DNA of 47,481 bases, taken from positions 1-47,481 of IMG/VR virus record IMGVR_UViG_3300046543_000431; one strand, 5' to 3'. How positions within the stretch are numbered: position 1 is the first letter of the stretch; every line of letters begins with the position of its first letter. Below, in pieces: positions 2,944 through 42,818 of this stretch. The notes under the pieces are model-generated. The model saw nothing but the letters and a program-made list of their open reading frames with translations, was not told where the DNA came from and made no database searches. The translations under genes and the position numbers were made by a program. The stretch is from a virus.

Positions 2944-3894
2944 ATGACGCGGGGGCAGGAAATGGCAGCGGGCGGACGATACAAGAAAATCAGCGTGAGG
3001 ATGTGGGGCGACGGCAAGTTCCGCGCTCTTTCCGCGCCACCACCAAACGCTCAGACGTTGTGGATTTATCTTCTAACCGGACCACATACGACCTCGATTC
3101 CGGGGCTTTTTGTGGCCGGGGAATCGGGCTTGGCGGAATCGCTCGGCTGGCCGCTGAAAGGGTTTCGGGAAGGGTTTGGCGAACTGTTACGGGAACGGTT
3201 AGTCGAAGCCGATTTTTCGGCCCGCGTAATCTGGATTCCAAAGGCCATTTTGCACAACCCGCCCGACAACCCGAACGTCGTAAAGTCGTGGAAAATTCAC
3301 TGGTCGGAAATCCCGGAATGCGAGCTTAAAGTCAAGGCGTGGCAACAACTTAAAGGGTTCCTGGAAGGGTTTGGCGAAGGGTTTGCGAAACCATTCGTGG
3401 ATGGTTGCCCAAAGGGTATGGCGAATCAGGAACAGGAACAGGAACAGGAACAGGAACAGGAACAGCCAAAACCCACTCCCTCTTCTCTCCCAAAAAAACC
3501 AGCGCCGCGAAACGGCGTTCCGCTGCCGTTCGCGTCGGAGAGATTCGCCGAAGCGTGGTCGGAGTGGGAGCAACACCGGCGGGAAACGAAAAACCGACTC
3601 ACGCCGGCTACCGTCACGAAGCAGTTTGCCCAACTCGCGGAGATGGGGGAAGAGCAAGCCATCGCGTCGATCAACCAATCCATCGAAAAAGGCTGGCGGG
3701 GTCTTTTCCCCGTCACCGGAAAGGGGAAAGCGAATGCCAGAAAAACTGAAACCTCTGCCGGAAAATTCGACCCAAGCCGCGACTATTCAGCAGGTTTTCC
3801 AGGAATCGCCTTTGCTGAAAACGATGCAGGAGTATCGGGATCAGCGGGCGAAGATGACGCCGGAGGAAATCGCGGAACAGGACCGGAAGCGTGA
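2944..3894 (+). CDS. Phage replisome-organiser-like protein
   Basis: A 316-residue replication protein. Residues about 12-110 (RYKKISVRMWGDGKFRALS, LWIYLLTGPHT, IPGLFVAGESGLAE, LGWPLKGF) form the winged-helix N-terminal domain found in phage replication initiators that sit before DnaC-like loaders. A (Glu-Gln)6 linker encoded by a hexanucleotide repeat follows, then a DnaD-like segment (TKQFAQLAEMGEEQAIASINQSIEKGW). ATG 2962 is an alternative start six residues in. The last 53 codons overlap the dnaC-like gene by 161 bases in another frame and read as low-complexity, so the true functional C-terminus may be near residue 260. Confidence 0.75.
   Translation: MTRGQEMAAGGRYKKISVRMWGDGKFRALSAPPPNAQTLWIYLLTGPHTTSIPGLFVAGESGLAESLGWPLKGFREGFGELLRERLVEADFSARVIWIPKAILHNPPDNPNVVKSWKIHWSEIPECELKVKAWQQLKGFLEGFGEGFAKPFVDGCPKGMANQEQEQEQEQEQEQPKPTPSSLPKKPAPRNGVPLPFASERFAEAWSEWEQHRRETKNRLTPATVTKQFAQLAEMGEEQAIASINQSIEKGWRGLFPVTGKGKANARKTETSAGKFDPSRDYSAGFPGIAFAENDAGVSGSAGEDDAGGNRGTGPEA
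3427..3465 (+). repeat. CAGGAA hexanucleotide tandem repeat
   Basis: Six perfect CAGGAA units (3427-3462) plus a partial seventh encode alternating Gln-Glu inside the replication protein linker. Copy-number changes would keep the frame and alter only linker length. Confidence 0.95.
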
Positions 3895-9817: not shown

Positions 9818-10060
9818 ATGAAATCTATCATGTTACCCCCGTTGCCACTCGGAACGGAGATAACGATTAAAGTGTCGTGGATGGGAGATCCGTTGCCGCA
9901 AGGCGGGTTAGTGCTGAGCGTCGAACATATTGCAGAAGGGTCGATCATCATTCCGATGGGGCAGGAAATGGTTATCGCCCCACAGTCGCCGAACATGATG
10001 ATTCTGGGAATCCGACCGAATGCCGATTCGCCTATTATGGTCGAACCGAATAAAGTGTGA
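9818..10060 (+). CDS. Small hypothetical protein with AAGGTGCAA leader
   Basis: An 80-residue, mainly beta protein rich in Pro, Ile and Met, preceded by AAGGTGCAA at 9807-9815. It ends with TGA overlapping the GTG start of the large terminase, so it may couple terminase translation. No family recognised. Confidence 0.6.
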   Translation: MKSIMLPPLPLGTEITIKVSWMGDPLPQGGLVLSVEHIAEGSIIIPMGQEMVIAPQSPNMMILGIRPNADSPIMVEPNKV

Positions 10061-11391
10061 TCGCAACCTACATTATCCGTGAACTGCCCGCCAGCTCCAA
10101 GGCCCAGGGGTTCTGCCCGCGCGGAGCCGCAAAGCAACTTTGGAAATGCAAGGAACCCGCCGCGATCATCAGCGGAAGCGCCGAAACCGGGAAAACTTTT
10201 GCTGCCCTCCACCTTCTCGACGCACGTTGCTGGAAGTACCCCGGCGTGCAAGCGGCCATCATCCGCAAGACGTACAACTCCGCAGTGACCAGCGTACTCC
10301 AAACGTTCCAAAACAAAGTGCTAGGACGGGATTCGCCGGTCAAGGTACACGGCGGCACGTCCCCGCAGTTCTACGAGTACCCGAACGGCAGTAAGATATT
10401 TGTCGGCGGGATGGACAACCCGAATAAAGTTCTTTCCAGCGAACGCGATTTCATTTTCATCAATCAGGCCGAGGAACTCACCGAGCCTGAGTTTGAAATC
10501 TTAACGACCCGCGCCACGGGGCGCGCCGGCAACGCGCCCTATGCCCAGGTGTTCGGCGATTGTAACCCCAGCTTCCCGCAACACTGGATCAAGAAACGGA
10601 GCGGCCTGACGCTCTTTGAATCGCGTCACGAGGATAACCCGGTCCTGTTCGACGATGCCGGCAAGATTACGCAACAAGGCCGGCGCACGCTCGCGGTGCT
10701 GGACGCGCTCACCGGCCCGCGCAAACAGCGGCTCCGCTACGGGCGATGGGTGCAGGCCGAGGGCGTCGTGTACGAAGGGTGGGACGCGGCGGTGCATTTC
10801 AAGACAGCGGCGGAATTGTTTCCCGGCGGTCGCGTCCCGCAAGAATGGCCGCGGTATCTGGTCATCGACTTCGGGTTCGTTCACCCGTTTGTTGCCCAGT
10901 GGTGGGCGGCGGACGGCGACGGGCGATTGTACCTGTACCGCGAAATCTATCTGACGCAGACGCTCGTGGAGGACCACGCGAAGGAAATCAAGGCGGGTAT
11001 CGTGACGGACGGTAAACGCCCGCAACTGATTCTTTGCGACCACGACGCCGAGGATCGAGCCACGCTTGAACGGCATTTAGGGCAATCCACATCACCCGCG
11101 CCGAAGGCTGTAAGCCCCGGCATCCAGGCGATGGCGGGCCGGTTGAAGCTTCAGAACGACGGCAAGCCGCGTTTGTTCGTCATGCGCGATTCGTTGGTGA
11201 GACGGGACACGAATCTCCACGACGCGAAGAAGCCGTGTTGTTTCTCGGACGAGATTGATACCTATATCTGGAATGACTCCATCCGAAAAGACGAACCGAT
11301 CAAGGAGTACGACCACAGCATGGACGCGGCACGCTACATCGTGTACCATTTAGACAAGCGCGTAAGCGGCTGGCGCATGGAGAGAATCTAA
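10057..11391 (+). CDS. Terminase large subunit
   Basis: A 444-residue packaging motor. The ATPase domain has Walker A GSAETGKT (residues 40-47) and FIFINQAEEL (about 132-141) as a Walker B-like segment with the catalytic Glu; RKTYNSAVTSV follows the adenine-binding region. The RNase H-like nuclease domain shows LVIDFGF (Asp271), ILCDHDAED (around 326-333) and EYDHSMDAARY near the end, the usual acidic metal ligands. It pumps DNA into the prohead and cuts concatemers. The start is the GTG at 10057, overlapping the previous stop. Confidence 0.93.
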   Translation: MIATYIIRELPASSKAQGFCPRGAAKQLWKCKEPAAIISGSAETGKTFAALHLLDARCWKYPGVQAAIIRKTYNSAVTSVLQTFQNKVLGRDSPVKVHGGTSPQFYEYPNGSKIFVGGMDNPNKVLSSERDFIFINQAEELTEPEFEILTTRATGRAGNAPYAQVFGDCNPSFPQHWIKKRSGLTLFESRHEDNPVLFDDAGKITQQGRRTLAVLDALTGPRKQRLRYGRWVQAEGVVYEGWDAAVHFKTAAELFPGGRVPQEWPRYLVIDFGFVHPFVAQWWAADGDGRLYLYREIYLTQTLVEDHAKEIKAGIVTDGKRPQLILCDHDAEDRATLERHLGQSTSPAPKAVSPGIQAMAGRLKLQNDGKPRLFVMRDSLVRRDTNLHDAKKPCCFSDEIDTYIWNDSIRKDEPIKEYDHSMDAARYIVYHLDKRVSGWRMERI

Positions 11392-14182: not shown

Positions 14183-14403
14183 AATACCTGTTCGTCGGCG
14201 GGCCGCTCAACAGTGATTCTGTAGACCTGGATGAAAACATACACAAAGGAAGACATATAAAATTTGCTCACCATGACGAAGATACTGGACACCAAGTCCA
14301 TCGCTATCGTGTAGATCATGACGGCAAGAATCTTTGGTACGACGGCCCTGTTCCGGAATCGGAACTACTCGTGCCGCCAAGCCGTCGCGCTGTTGCTCCT
14401 TAA
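14179..14403 (+). CDS. Small hypothetical protein with AAGGTGCAA leader
   Basis: A 74-residue protein rich in His and Asp, with AAGGTGCAA at 14168-14176. MKYLFVGGPLNSD... followed by HRYRVDHDGKNLWYD looks like a compact beta fold found in small phage proteins. It ends at the repeats that mark the promoter region before the protease gene, and its codon use is more AT-rich than that of the portal. Confidence 0.55.
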   Translation: MKYLFVGGPLNSDSVDLDENIHKGRHIKFAHHDEDTGHQVHRYRVDHDGKNLWYDGPVPESELLVPPSRRAVAP

Positions 14404-14455
14404 CTGTAAATCTAATCCCCTTAGCTGTAAATCTCTTTGTCTTAACTGTAAATTC
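14399..14455 (+). repeat. Three 15-bp direct repeats spaced 21 bp
   Basis: CTTAACTGTAAATCT (14399-14413), CTTAGCTGTAAATCT (14420-14434) and CTTAACTGTAAATTC (14441-14455) recur with an exact 21-bp period, two helical turns. They lie immediately upstream of a TTGACA promoter. The arrangement fits cooperative binding of a phage activator or repressor. Confidence 0.85.
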
Positions 14456-14468
14456 TTTATCGCACGTC

Positions 14469-14535: not shown

Positions 14536-15888
14536 GTGGACGTTGCCGATATTCTCACGAAACGGCGAACCTTCGCGGATAACATCGCCAGCGGGTACGG
14601 GCTTCAGTGGATCGGCGAGAATCGAATCGCGTGTTTGGCAAAGCAGATTGGAACGATCCAGGACGGCCAGATTGACACGAAGAAGATGGCGATTCAATGC
14701 GTCATCAGCACGGAAGACGAGGACCGTAGCGGCGACTTGATCCTGACGGAAGGGATCGACACCAGCCAGCACCAGCCGAATCCCGTGGTCCTTTACTCCC
14801 ACGGGATGAGCCTGAACAAACCAATCGGCAAGGCCGAAGACGAGACGGGAAAATACACCGTCACCCGCGAACCGCAGATGCTGAGGAGTGTAACCTACTT
14901 CTCACAAACGCTACCCGAAGCGTATGAGCTTTTTGGATTGGCGGCGGAAGGGATCTTGCGTGGCTGGTCGATTGGCGCGGTCCCGGTGGAAACCGAACCC
15001 CGCACGACGGCGAGCTTTGGGAATGGCTCGCTGCTGGTGAAGCGATGCGAGTTGTTTGAATATTCGCTCACCCCGACGCCGGACAACCGGCTCGCGTTAA
15101 CCGAGCGAGTGCTGAAGTCTGAAACGGGCGGCAAGCAACTACTCCCCACGCTTCTGAAGTGTTTCCAGCCGTGGCTCTTGCCGATGCCGCGTGTGACTGT
15201 TGTACCGGAGGGTGTACCCGTGGCCGTGACCAAAGAAGCGCCCCCGCCATCCAAGGCCGACAAGCCCCACGACTACGAGCCGCTCGACGACAAGAACCCC
15301 GCCAGCCCGACCCCCGACCCCGAAGCCAGCCCCGGTTCTGCGGCAGACTCCGCCGAAGCCCACCCCACCGACGACAAGAACCCTGCGACCGTGGACGCCA
15401 ATGATGGCGACAAGTACGCCGAGTATCCGCACGGGGCGGCGATGCTTGCCCAAACTCACGATCGTCTGATGGAGATGACCAGCTACCACGCGGCGGCGAG
15501 CAAGAAACTCGACAGCCCCGCCGTCAAGGACTTCATCGCGGAAACGGCTTCCATCATCGAAGAGCGCTGCGACGCGATCAAGGACATGTGGAAAGCGGAA
15601 TACCCCGACCTCGACGAACCGACCGGCGACGCCGACACCGTGGACGACGACGGCAAGGGCGAAAACGACAAAAAGAAACCCGTCGAAAAGAACCTGCCCG
15701 AACGTCTGGGCCGCTACCTCCGCGCCTTCCGCGCCCAGTTCACGAAGGGCGTCAAGGACGCGGGAACGCTCGCCGAACTCGCGAACCTCAAAGACGAAAA
15801 CGCGCAATTGAAGAAGGCGCTTCAAACCGCCCTGCGCGCTCACGAGAAACTGAAATCCGGAATCAACGCAGCGAAACGCGGTCGATAA
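14536..15888 (+). CDS. Prohead protease fused to scaffold domain
   Basis: A 450-residue fusion. Residues about 50-190 match HK97-type prohead serine proteases: ISTEDEDRSGDLI, NPVVLYSHGM with catalytic His89, GWSIGAVPVE with catalytic Ser145, and LFEYSLTPTPDNR. Residues 210-450 are acidic, Pro/Ala-rich and then coiled coil (LKDENAQLKKALQTALRAHE), the composition of a scaffold. The protease matures the prohead by cutting scaffold and capsid delta domains. GTG 14536 is the likely start. Fusion of the two functions in one chain occurs in other phages. Confidence 0.88.
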   Translation: MDVADILTKRRTFADNIASGYGLQWIGENRIACLAKQIGTIQDGQIDTKKMAIQCVISTEDEDRSGDLILTEGIDTSQHQPNPVVLYSHGMSLNKPIGKAEDETGKYTVTREPQMLRSVTYFSQTLPEAYELFGLAAEGILRGWSIGAVPVETEPRTTASFGNGSLLVKRCELFEYSLTPTPDNRLALTERVLKSETGGKQLLPTLLKCFQPWLLPMPRVTVVPEGVPVAVTKEAPPPSKADKPHDYEPLDDKNPASPTPDPEASPGSAADSAEAHPTDDKNPATVDANDGDKYAEYPHGAAMLAQTHDRLMEMTSYHAAASKKLDSPAVKDFIAETASIIEERCDAIKDMWKAEYPDLDEPTGDADTVDDDGKGENDKKKPVEKNLPERLGRYLRAFRAQFTKGVKDAGTLAELANLKDENAQLKKALQTALRAHEKLKSGINAAKRGR

Positions 15889-34247: not shown

Positions 34248-34325
34248 GGGGTGGCTCCTTACTCGGATAGACGCGAAACACCGGATATTTTTCGCGCCGC
34301 CACGCGAACGGCAATAGAGAAATCT

Positions 34326-34415
34326 ATTATAATGACATTTATGGGTAGAAAAGTATAATTAACGGACTTTTTTAGACACGATTTGATTGACAAACCGCGC
34401 GAAATTGTTTAGTTT
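34326..34415. promoter_or_regulatory. Divergent promoter region
   Basis: An AT-rich 213-bp gap separates the leftward secreted-protein gene from rightward genes. On the minus strand TATAAT (34331-34326) and TATACT (34357-34352) are -10 candidates. On the plus strand TTGACA (34387-34392) with 17 bp to TAGTTT (34410-34415) is a reasonable promoter for the small genes starting at 34461. Confidence 0.5.
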
Positions 34416-35634: not shown

Positions 35635-37185
35635 TTGAAACGAAATCTCTTCTCCCTGTTCGCCGTCCTCGCGTTCGGCAGCTTCGCGATCATGCTGGCC
35701 GGCGCTCAACCGCCTCCCGCGCAACCCGACCCCGCGAAAGTCGCCGAGGCCGCGAAGCTCGAAGCCGAAGTCGCCGCGGCGAAGGCCGCGAAAGCCGCGA
35801 AGGAAAACCCGCCCGCGCAACCGGAAACCGCCGAACCAGCCGGCAAGTTCGGGCGCATCAAGCCCAAGCAAATCGTCGAAGGCGACAAGTTCAAAGTGGT
35901 CGTTTCCCCGTCCGGCACGCGGCACGTCGTCCCGAAGCTCGCCGCGTACATGAAACCCGCGACAGTCGCACTCCCGACGACCGTGGATTATGCGACAAAG
36001 GCGATGGCGTCTATCGGACGCATGTACAAGAATGATTCACTGGGTGACTGCGTGATCGCGGGAAAGATGCACCAACTTGGCGTATGGTCCGCGAACGATT
36101 CGGATTCCGGCGGCGTTGTTCTCGCAACCGATGCCGAAGTCGTGAGTCAGTATCACTCAATCTGCGGGGCCGGCGATAACGGCTGCGTCATCACCGACGT
36201 TCTCGACACGATGAAATCGAAGGGCATGACGGCGGGCGGCAAGTCGTACAAGATCGACGGGTATGTGTCGATCGACAACACGAACGTCAATGAAGTCAAA
36301 ACCGCGTTGTACCTGTTCGGCTCGTTGACGCTGGGGATCGACTTGCCCTCCGCGTGGGCCAATTCATCAAACAACGGAATCTGGGACACGACGAACACGG
36401 GCATCGTCGGCGGCCATGATGTACCCGCCGTTGGGTTTAACGATACGGGCGTGGTAATCGCGACGTGGGCGGGCTTACGCACGATTACCTGGAAAGCGTT
36501 CACGTCGAAAAAATGGATCACGGAACTCTACGCGCAACTGGCCCCGCTGTGGTACGGCAGCGACAAGCTCGCGCCGTGCGGCGTGGACGCGGTGACGCTG
36601 AAAACGGACCTCGACGCGCTGGGCGGCGGCACGATTCCGCCGGTCACTCCACCAGTTCCCCCGATTCCTGTTCCTGTTCCGCCAACGCCGGAACCGCCGC
36701 TCGTTGGCGACGTGACGCTAACCGCGGCCGAAGTCAAGGTATTGCAGGGCGTGTTCGCGAAGCTGGGCATCGGCGGCGGTGCGCCAGGCCCAACCGACCG
36801 CACCGAGCAATTTGCCGACGATACGACGATTCAGGACAAGATTTCCGCGGCGTTGGCCGAGAAGGACGCCGCCGACGGGACTCGCCACGCGGAGCGGTAC
36901 GAACGACTCCGCAAGCGGCCGTTGGAACACAAGATTTTCATGCGAATGCTCGTCAGGGACATGAAGAAAACGGATGCGGGCAAAGCCCTCATGGCGCAGT
37001 ACGACAGCGGGGCGCTGCCGCCGGGCTTCTTGGATAACCTCGCCAAGTTCCTGGCCGCGATTGCTCCGCTCATCATCGAAATCCTGAAGCTGTTCGGCAT
37101 CGGCGGGGCGGCGTGGTGTCTGCCGTTTGGTATGCGGCGGCTACGCAATCAACTCCGCAACGCGGACTGGCCGACTAAGGCATAA
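35635..37185 (+). CDS. Secreted papain-like cysteine protease fold protein
   Basis: A 516-residue protein from a TTG start (35635) with signal peptide (KRNLFSLFAVLAFGSFAIML AGA). After an Ala/Lys/Glu linker, residues about 115-310 resemble a C1/papain-like domain: NDSLGDCVIAGKMHQL carries the likely nucleophile Cys and IVGGHDVPAVGFNDTGVVIA the likely His. A Pro-rich hinge follows, then a helical C-terminal domain with a membrane-like segment (LAAIAPLIIEILKLFGIGGA). It could be a lysis enzyme, an injected or exported protease, or an adhesin. No classical endolysin is visible elsewhere. Confidence 0.65.
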   Translation: MKRNLFSLFAVLAFGSFAIMLAGAQPPPAQPDPAKVAEAAKLEAEVAAAKAAKAAKENPPAQPETAEPAGKFGRIKPKQIVEGDKFKVVVSPSGTRHVVPKLAAYMKPATVALPTTVDYATKAMASIGRMYKNDSLGDCVIAGKMHQLGVWSANDSDSGGVVLATDAEVVSQYHSICGAGDNGCVITDVLDTMKSKGMTAGGKSYKIDGYVSIDNTNVNEVKTALYLFGSLTLGIDLPSAWANSSNNGIWDTTNTGIVGGHDVPAVGFNDTGVVIATWAGLRTITWKAFTSKKWITELYAQLAPLWYGSDKLAPCGVDAVTLKTDLDALGGGTIPPVTPPVPPIPVPVPPTPEPPLVGDVTLTAAEVKVLQGVFAKLGIGGGAPGPTDRTEQFADDTTIQDKISAALAEKDAADGTRHAERYERLRKRPLEHKIFMRMLVRDMKKTDAGKALMAQYDSGALPPGFLDNLAKFLAAIAPLIIEILKLFGIGGAAWCLPFGMRRLRNQLRNADWPTKA

Positions 37186-37600
37186 CCCTGGGGTTAGAAT
37201 ATTCTAACCCGGAATATCCCCTGAGCTAACCCCAGGGTTAGAATACTCCGCGGTAGAATATCCCGGCGGGTTAACCCAACGGCTAGAATATTCGGGGTTA
37301 GAATATTCTAGGGTTAACCCAGGGTTAGAATATTCTAGAAGTGGGTTAACCCGAATATTCCGCGTTTTTCATCGAGGATTCACGGGGTTAGGTTAGCACT
37401 GGGCTAGAATATTCTAGCTCAAGGTTAAATCAGAGCTAGAATATTTCGGGTTAGAACAGAATATCCCAGGGTTATGCTAGCCGGAATATTCTGGGTTAGT
37501 CCGGGGTTAACCCGAGGTTAGCCCAGGGTTAGCATGGGGCTAGTCCAGGGTTAGCACGGGATATTTCGGGGTTAGTTCAGGGCTAGTTCAGGGTAACCGT
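37186..37600. repeat. Palindromic AATATT / GTTAAC repeat island
   Basis: This 442-bp gene-free gap is built from two motifs. GAATATTC occurs perfectly at 37197, 37286, 37301, 37328, 37353, 37407 and 37484, with variants (GAATATCC, GAATACTC, GAATATTT) at about six more sites; GGGTTAACCC occurs at 37268, 37311, 37343 and 37504. Copies are usually set in GGGTTAG or GGCTAG context, and 37191-37210 is a perfect 20-bp palindrome. It has no coding frame. Possible roles are replication origin, partition or packaging site, or a multi-site protein-binding array. Confidence 0.93.
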
Positions 37601-37627: not shown

Positions 37628-37813
37628 ATGGACAAGACGAAACTAACCGCAGTCGTGAAAGCGACGATCGACGAACTGTTCGTCCAACTCGCGGCGAAGG
37701 CGGCGGGCCATCCGCTCGCGGCCCACGCGGTCGATTTCTTCAAGCGCGAGGCCGACAAGCTCGAAGCCGACGTGGTTGCGGAACTGGTGAACGAGTTTGC
37801 GCCGACGCCGTGA
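37628..37813 (+). CDS. Small helical protein
   Basis: A 61-residue all-helical protein (ATIDELFVQLAAKAAGHPLA, FFKREADKLEADVVAELVNE) with a CCGGAGG ribosome site. It is the first gene after the palindromic repeat island, and could be a partner that binds it, though no DNA-binding motif is clear. Function unknown. Confidence 0.55.
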   Translation: MDKTKLTAVVKATIDELFVQLAAKAAGHPLAAHAVDFFKREADKLEADVVAELVNEFAPTP

Positions 37814-39240: not shown

Positions 39241-39957
39241 ATGCGACCGACTTTCGAGAGCGAACATTGCCAATTGTGGCTTGCGGATTGCCGCGACGTG
39301 CTGCCGTGTATTCCAGGTTTGGATTGCGTGATAACTGACCCACCGTTCGGCATCAACTACGCGAACCGACGCGGCGATATGGTCCCCAAGGTATTCGATG
39401 GAGCATTGAAGAACGACGAATCGCAAGAGGTAGGACAAGCGATCATTGACGAATGCTTCAAGCGTGAATGGCCCGTCTGCACGTTTGCCCACCATCGCAA
39501 GCCGTGGGCAGGAATCTGGCGTCAATGGCTCGTCTGGGACAAAGGGCCGGCAGTAGGCGGCGGCGGCGACTTGGCTACCTGCTGGAAGTTTACCTGGGAA
39601 CTGATTCAGGTCGGTGGGTTCGGGAAGCTGAACGGACAACGGGATAGCGCGGTTCTGCGATATTGGATCGGCCAGACGAATATGCACGAACACCCGACAC
39701 AAAAGCCGGTTGCCCTGATGACGTACCTCATTAAAAAACTGACCACGGCAAACGACGTTGTTGCCGATTTCTTCATGGGAAGCGGAACAACATTAGTATC
39801 GGCAATCAGGGCGGGGCGATGTGCGATTGGGGTTGAGTCAGACGAACGATACTTCGACATCGCCGTGAAGCGAATTCAAGAGGCCGAGGGCGTCGGCTCG
39901 TTGTTCGACCCGACCCACAAGCCCGAACCCGTCGATATGTTCGCCGGGTCAGTATGA
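39241..39957 (+). CDS. Orphan DNA methyltransferase (beta-class N6-A/N4-C)
   Basis: A 238-residue Dam/DpnA-like enzyme. The catalytic motif is DPPF at residues 33-36 (ITDPPFGINYANRRGD), and the SAM-binding motif DFFMGSGTTLVSAIRAGR lies near 178-195, so the order is that of beta-class amino-methyltransferases. HPTQKPVALM precedes motif I, as expected. No restriction gene is nearby, so it probably protects phage DNA from host nucleases or controls expression. Phe at the DPPY tyrosine is a known variant. Target not predictable. Confidence 0.9.
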   Translation: MRPTFESEHCQLWLADCRDVLPCIPGLDCVITDPPFGINYANRRGDMVPKVFDGALKNDESQEVGQAIIDECFKREWPVCTFAHHRKPWAGIWRQWLVWDKGPAVGGGGDLATCWKFTWELIQVGGFGKLNGQRDSAVLRYWIGQTNMHEHPTQKPVALMTYLIKKLTTANDVVADFFMGSGTTLVSAIRAGRCAIGVESDERYFDIAVKRIQEAEGVGSLFDPTHKPEPVDMFAGSV

Positions 39958-41804: not shown

Positions 41805-42818
41805 TCATGCCAAATTGATTGCGTCGTTCAGCGTGGGGTCAAGGTCGGCGTAGAATTTCAACGTCGTCTTTATGTCAGAATGACGCATAAGGCGCTGCAA
41901 AATGTGCGCCGGCACGATCGGGGCGTACCTCGTGCCGAACGTGCGGCGGATGTCGTGGAGAGTGGCCTTCACGCCGACGGACGCGGCCAGCTTGATAAAC
42001 TGCTGGGTCACGACGTCGGGCGTGGCAAGCGGGAACATCGGGCCGGACGGCTGACGAAGCGGTTTCAGAATCGCGGCCAGCTTGCGATGCAGCGGAATCC
42101 ATTGGTCCGCGTTGCTCTTGTTGAACGCGGCGGGAATCCAAATCCGCTTCGCCGCGAAATCGACCCACGGGGCCGCCGTGTGCTGATCCCAGACGAGCGA
42201 CAGCAATTCCGTCCGTCTCATCCCGCTATGCCATGCCGTCCACAGGAACGCCCGCCACACGTCCGACGGGGCCGCGTCCAGAATTGATGTAAACTGAATT
42301 AGAGAAATCGTACGCGGGCGCTTCGCGTGGTACTTCGGCAGCGTGATCTTCGGGCGTTTGGGAAGAAATCCCTGGTCTTCGGCCCATTGCAAGGCTGCGG
42401 CGAGGTACGCGAGTGAACCCGCAATCGTCGCCGTGGCTTGCTCGCGCGTGCGTAAACCCGCGATGAACCGCGAGACGGCCCGCTCGTCGGCGTCTGCGAT
42501 GCGTTTGACGCCGCCATATTTCGCGAAGTGGCGCAACACCCGCTCGGCTTTAACCCGCGTGGCCGGGCGGTTGCCGGACAGTTTTTCCGCCGTGTATGCC
42601 GCGACGAAATCGGGCCACGACATTTTTGACGGCTCGGCGAACGTCCCGTGCCGTAACTCATACTCGAGGTCGCGGGCTTTTTGCTCCGCAGCGGTTCGAT
42701 CCGACGTGCCGGCGGTGCGCGTGCGGCGTCTGCCGGTCGCGGGGTCTACCCACTGGAGCGCTAAATTGTCGCGGTCGGTGAATGCCTGAACCCAGACCGT
42801 GATTTTCGCGTGTGACAT
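41805..42818 (-). CDS. int: Tyrosine recombinase / phage integrase
   Basis: A 337-residue integrase. The N-terminal part includes an arm-binding domain (ITVWVQAFTDRDNLALQWVD, RTRTAGTSDRTAAEQKARDL) and a SAM-like core-binding domain (FVAAYTAEKLS to about 160). The catalytic domain shows Arg in HSGMRRTELLSLVW (about 198), HxxR as LHDIRRTFGTR (about 290), His in LMRHSDIKTT and Tyr in LKFYADLD (about 325). It would integrate and excise the phage with an excisionase. It is transcribed left from the lysogeny module and its 3' end borders the att candidate. Confidence 0.93.
   Translation of the reverse strand: MSHAKITVWVQAFTDRDNLALQWVDPATGRRRTRTAGTSDRTAAEQKARDLEYELRHGTFAEPSKMSWPDFVAAYTAEKLSGNRPATRVKAERVLRHFAKYGGVKRIADADERAVSRFIAGLRTREQATATIAGSLAYLAAALQWAEDQGFLPKRPKITLPKYHAKRPRTISLIQFTSILDAAPSDVWRAFLWTAWHSGMRRTELLSLVWDQHTAAPWVDFAAKRIWIPAAFNKSNADQWIPLHRKLAAILKPLRQPSGPMFPLATPDVVTQQFIKLAASVGVKATLHDIRRTFGTRYAPIVPAHILQRLMRHSDIKTTLKFYADLDPTLNDAINLA

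Follow-up and report, generated by a model that had tools for sequence, protein, structure and literature searches.

A palindrome-rich repeat island at the late-gene boundary of a temperate phage: a putative array of protein-binding sites

What purpose, if any, is served by more than 400 bp of gene-free DNA packed with short palindromes and repeated words at the end of the late genes of a phage? The question is raised by IMGVR_UViG_3300046543_000431, an IMG/VR virus entry (47,481 bp) that was analyzed whole (henceforth the window). A sequence-only reading of the record held that the repeats resemble an iteron origin, a partition centromere or a packaging site more than decayed coding DNA. The general part of that view stands: an iteron-like array of putative protein-binding sites is favored over decayed coding DNA because the island has directional half-sites, an 11-bp tandem and symmetry at the level of DNA. 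The specific part is less secure, in that none of the three named functions is established. In general terms, a DNA-level array of putative binding sites is the statement with the best support.

Position of the island in the phage genome

The gene map was made in this analysis by codon-based calling, with no annotation used. The genes are those expected of a temperate tailed phage of siphophage type: RecT, an O-like/DnaD-like initiator, terminase, portal, major capsid, tape measure and tyrosine integrase. An IstB-like loader gene is a possible further component of the replication module. The landmarks are as follows:

2944..3894, + strand: replication initiator, O-like/DnaD-like, candidate site of the main origin
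10057..11391, + strand: large subunit of terminase; 27 kb separate it from the island when the record is taken as linear
35635..37185, + strand: upstream gene (phrog_19005, 516 aa), only distantly similar to papain-like proteins
37183..37600, no strand: whole non-coding repeat island
37628..37813, + strand: downstream gene, 61 aa, no assigned function, with a GGAGG ribosome-binding site ahead of its start
41805..42818, − strand: tyrosine integrase (temperate phage)

The absence of genes over more than 400 bp, claimed at the outset, is confirmed: one gene ends at 37185, the following one begins at 37628, and the 442 bp that separate them hold no credible ORF. The stop codon of the upstream gene (TAA, 37183-37185) falls within the first repeat word of the island. 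The product of this gene carries a long proline-rich linker and a hydrophobic stretch at its C-terminus; its earlier description as papain-like draws on phrog_19005 and on one phage protein (28% identical) annotated as a cysteine protease; Pfam and PDB returned no match.

The island marks the boundary between the late structural genes and an accessory block of small genes that includes a DNA methylase. The methylase (N6/N4 type, 39241-39957) lies 1.6 kb downstream of the island and may have one of the palindromes there as its target. Such a position would fit an operator or nucleoprotein array, on which a repressor, a nucleoid-type protein or a partner of the methylase isolates or silences the block at 37.6-41.3 kb in lysogeny, and dimeric binders would suit symmetric palindromes. 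However, the region has no promoter match, no adjoining regulator was identified and 20-30 sites are many for an operator; we regard this reading as unlikely.

Anatomy of the repeats

The density of recurring 8-mers in the island ranks highest in the window. Its principal features are these:

37183..37480, no strand: 5′ part, a palindrome-rich mosaic of GGGYTAG, CTAACCC, GGGTTAACCC and GAATATTC words
37191..37210, no strand: perfect 20-bp palindrome GGGTTAGAATATTCTAACCC
37268..37277, no strand: first copy of GGGTTAACCC; the others are at 37311, 37343 and 37504
37403..37418, no strand: 16-bp palindrome GCTAGAATATTCTAGC, a variant with C-G in place of T-A on both arms
37493..37594, + strand: 3′ part, a degenerate directional 11-bp tandem with a consensus of about GGGYTAGNNCA

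Seven copies of GAATATTC fall within 37197-37491 and one more is found at 15058, against 0.69 expected over the whole window; this count of eight was reached by none of 100 shuffles. There are six near-copies (GAATATCC three times, GAATACTC, GAATATTT and GGATATTT), and all four copies of GGGTTAACCC in the window are inside the island. These counts, and the 20-bp palindrome, are as first reported. Perfect palindromes of at least 8 bp number 12 in 415 bp; shuffles gave 2.2, with a maximum of 7, and the window as a whole has 0.9 over the same length.

The array is nevertheless not purely palindromic, since GGGTTAG or GGGCTAG (GGGYTAG) occurs 13 times in forward and twice in reverse orientation. 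The element common to both parts of the island is GGYTAR, with 21 forward and eight reverse occurrences. Arms outside the AATATT core showed no co-variation, and maintenance of long palindrome arms was rejected as not significant.

The sequence-only reading had treated the island as one unit. The repeats are real, but the unit has two parts, and the ∼11-bp tandem had not been separated from the mosaic, in which the repeat words are irregularly spaced. The 24 distinct half-site centers of the whole island (five GGTTAACC centers each counted once) have a phase of about 10.8 bp (p = 0.003). Taken by itself the 5′ part has no significant phasing (p = 0.19), so the phasing of the whole is carried by the 3′ tandem. 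Such an arrangement is far from random, and the island looks like an array of protein-binding sites.

It is possible to ask whether the symmetry serves RNA rather than DNA: a terminator cluster, a processing site or a small RNA. Predicted folding is much stronger for the two strands of the island than for shuffles (z = −12.3 and −9.4), but strong folding of both strands is forced by palindromic DNA. In self-complementary alignments of the island there are 53 G.T and 47 A.C mismatches; because complementarity is thus strand-symmetric, the feature is one of DNA, with no evidence of a selected RNA. An RNA element was rejected on this symmetry, there being no excess of G.U over A.C. Neither Rho-independent (T-tract) terminators nor sigma-70 promoters matched in the island, and no Rfam family there was credible. 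Of all the readings considered, structured RNA is the least probable. tRNA genes as the content of the island were rejected on a tRNA search.

A late replication site and its rivals

Starting from what is observed (the array, its directionality, its DNA-level symmetry and the replication module of the phage), we infer protein binding, the identity of the binding protein and a role in replication. A phage or host protein would assemble on the island by binding the GGYTAR half-sites repeated there, and the AATATT and TTAA cores would provide easily opened or symmetric positions. The island would then serve the late region as a second replication site, non-coding and comparable in action to oriR of SPP1, a phage in which a second origin with direct repeats lies in a long intergenic region interrupting the late genes (PMC6316719). 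An initiator bound there might fire a late origin, or stall forks and bring about the switch to concatemer replication. A cis-acting protein-assembly array, most likely an SPP1 oriR-like late replication site, is accordingly the reading we place first, though tentatively and well short of an even chance.

Several features are consistent with it. The phage has an O-like initiator, a possible IstB-like loader and RecT; the long intergenic gap follows the late block; and direct repeats in one orientation, as in iterons, are present both in the GGGYTAG bias and in the tandem. Against this, the island words are not enriched above background in the O-like gene, which is 34 kb away. Sharing of boxes with the replication gene is a defining feature of the oriR kind, so the island is not classed with it and confidence in the oriR-like reading is low. 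Cumulative GC skew, which had been proposed as a check for an origin, has no turn or inflection at the island. As for an unwinding element, the island is AT-rich relative to the genome, but it ranks only eighth lowest in GC at 60 bp and third at 200 bp. The same island was found in no relative among those retrieved by terminase and capsid. A narrower version, in which interleaved GGYTAR half-sites and AATATT palindromes give a temperate phage of an unstudied host a second site, for late firing of replication or for stalling of forks, recognized by a protein other than the O-like initiator, has in our estimate a small chance of being right.

Three other repetitive or AT-rich stretches of the phage deserve mention. 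Within the O-like initiator gene are 12-bp repeats (GAAGGGTTTGGC-like, 3154-3206 and 3349-3401), which could be origin iterons or reflect no more than a repeated peptide. At 34315-34375 is the 60-bp stretch richest in AT (23% GC), in the gap that follows a minus-strand gene surrounded by plus-strand ones. Three 21-bp repeats, CCTTAACTGTAAATCTCTTTC, are found at 14398-14458, in an AT-rich gap of 353 bp that runs from the portal to the gene preceding the capsid.

The main rival, and a close one, holds that the island is a non-adaptive repeat: a short GC/AT word would have multiplied through slippage, template switching and annealing in the gap behind the last of the late genes, where repeats are tolerated, and would by now be decaying. 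We judge it possible, and second in rank to the oriR-like reading. The copies are degenerate, their spacing is irregular at the 5′ end and tandem at the 3′ end, the phage encodes RecT (annealing), and a planctomycete plasmid has degenerate intergenic arrays of other periods. Unrelated phages, moreover, carry non-coding 11-bp arrays with arbitrary core words. Viral records were scanned for three GGGNTAGNNNN units and for a matched control word, GGGNTGA. The GGGNTAG scan returned 69 loci, almost all of them outside coding sequence and differing in their unit sequences; the control returned 30, that is, GGGNTAG is only about 2.3-fold commoner, and a special phage-wide class of GGGNTAG arrays was rejected on this comparison. 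The TAG in an 11-bp array itself forces one strand to be non-coding. On the other side, a compact genome would pay a price for 415 bp of dead repeat, palindromes of two distinct types recur, and the array is strongly directional.

Two observations from the scan stand apart from the island. Non-coding (GGGATAGCCRT)n arrays (L251, L238, L209, L244, L258, L267) occur in many viral contigs, the GC content of which is roughly 38-49%; one record has as many as 14 adjoining matches, and several arrays are about 4 kb from terminase. A terminase hit was obtained for 13 array families: in 10 of these the GGGNTAG array is upstream of terminase on the linear record, often by 1-4 kb, and in the remaining three only if the records are circular.

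Which of the two leading readings is correct has different consequences. If the island is a second replication site, the two-origin layout of SPP1 extends to phages with lambda-type O initiators, and a defined sequence becomes available for testing the phage switch to concatemer replication. If it is a mere repeat, it is a caution that frequent non-coding 11-bp phage arrays can mimic designed sites.

It is also conceivable that the island belongs to an intergenic repeat family of the host, acquired by the prophage. From protein style we would guess at a planctomycete host; the DUF1559-like protein family is one that we take to be associated with planctomycetes, and neither three planctomycete plasmids nor 56 contigs encoding such a protein have a similar island. 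The phage is temperate, and an Isosphaera plasmid has mosaic intergenic arrays with GAATATTC-like words. Yet phage and plasmid records yielded no match, and the island words do not recur elsewhere in the phage. In 84,980 GTDB genomes a 16-base core occurs at 47 loci, which, one Flavobacterium tandem array apart, have the look of chance matches; those inspected are AT-rich. A dispersed host repeat with random placement, the outcome that was said to tell against a functional array, has been tested only indirectly, with a negative outcome: the core's hits look like chance and the record searches were empty. We hold this reading to be somewhat less probable than the operator array; many copies of GGGTTAGAATATTC in the host chromosome, if present, would favor it.

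The Flavobacterium MAG (L015:4200-4900, L043:4324-4505) has a 20-bp tandem, GTGGGGTTAGAATATTCTAG, followed by an inverted version. The 17 bp that it has in common with the island are probably a chance product of the search.

As regards a partition centromere, the second of the functions first suggested, parAB was not recognized among the selection of phage proteins scanned, and the tyrosine integrase indicates a phage that integrates.

Comparison with known systems

The island resembles SPP1 oriR in its setting, a long intergenic repeat array that lies within the late region or borders on it, and in the genes that accompany it, which include RecT-like, O/DnaD-like and loader genes (PMC6316719). 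It differs in that SPP1 oriR, a non-coding late-region origin bound by gp38, shares this one protein with oriL through similar repeats, whereas the phage island shares no words above background with the initiator gene and lacks a clear unwinding element.

Iterons are often semi-palindromic direct repeats (PMC7145576). Those of the planctomycete plasmids pISOP01, PALBO1 and pPL17-1 lie beside repA at steps of 21-23 and about 33 bp and include CCCCGGAATATCGAA; like the island they contain GGAATATC or GGTTAATC words, repeated at ∼2 or 3 helical turns. They are, however, regular direct repeats next to an initiator gene, while in the phage no gene for RepA was identified and the repeats of the 5′ part are palindromic and without regular spacing. 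On the Isosphaera plasmid pISOP01, 11 iterons, CCTCCCCGGAATATCGAA, spaced at 21-22 and 32 bp, were seen beside repA (L199:44458-44724), not listed in the PLSDB gene table; the same plasmid has a CRISPR-like array with the repeat GTTCCGCACCCCTCCGGGGGTGCGGCACCATTGAAAC (L199:47200-48300).

The SRL/SRR arrays of T7 and the left-end arrays of Drulisvirus also consist of non-coding 7-bp words about one turn apart, CTATCCC being the Drulisvirus word, and they invite the view that the island is a DNA maturation or packaging site, like the short repeats beside T7-like terminal repeats. In the Drulisvirus records phiKpS2 and SAA231 the arrays, of about 11 bp and CTATCCC type, are in and just inside the left terminal repeat, and T7 has CCTAAAG arrays at both ends. 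But these arrays flank terminal repeats of T7-like phages and the island does not: the phage has siphophage-type temperate genes, and neither a T7-like polymerase hit nor a terminal repeat was seen in it, near the island or elsewhere. The island is also 27 kb downstream of the terminase (at 10 kb), and the left array of T7 has a period of 13 bp. It does not belong with T7-type SRL/SRR, and we consider a packaging role very unlikely.

With REP/BIME elements the island has in common a mosaic of short intergenic palindromes; these elements are dispersed in many copies per genome, in contrast to a single island in one phage. Finally, the GGGNTAG arrays of assorted viral contigs (L203-L270) have the same heptamer, an 11-bp unit and a non-coding setting, but no flanking sequence or genes were found in common. 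Since arrays with different core words are carried by unrelated phages, the heptamer is no signature: non-coding 11-bp arrays are recurrent in phage genomes, and the island is of an ordinary general kind.
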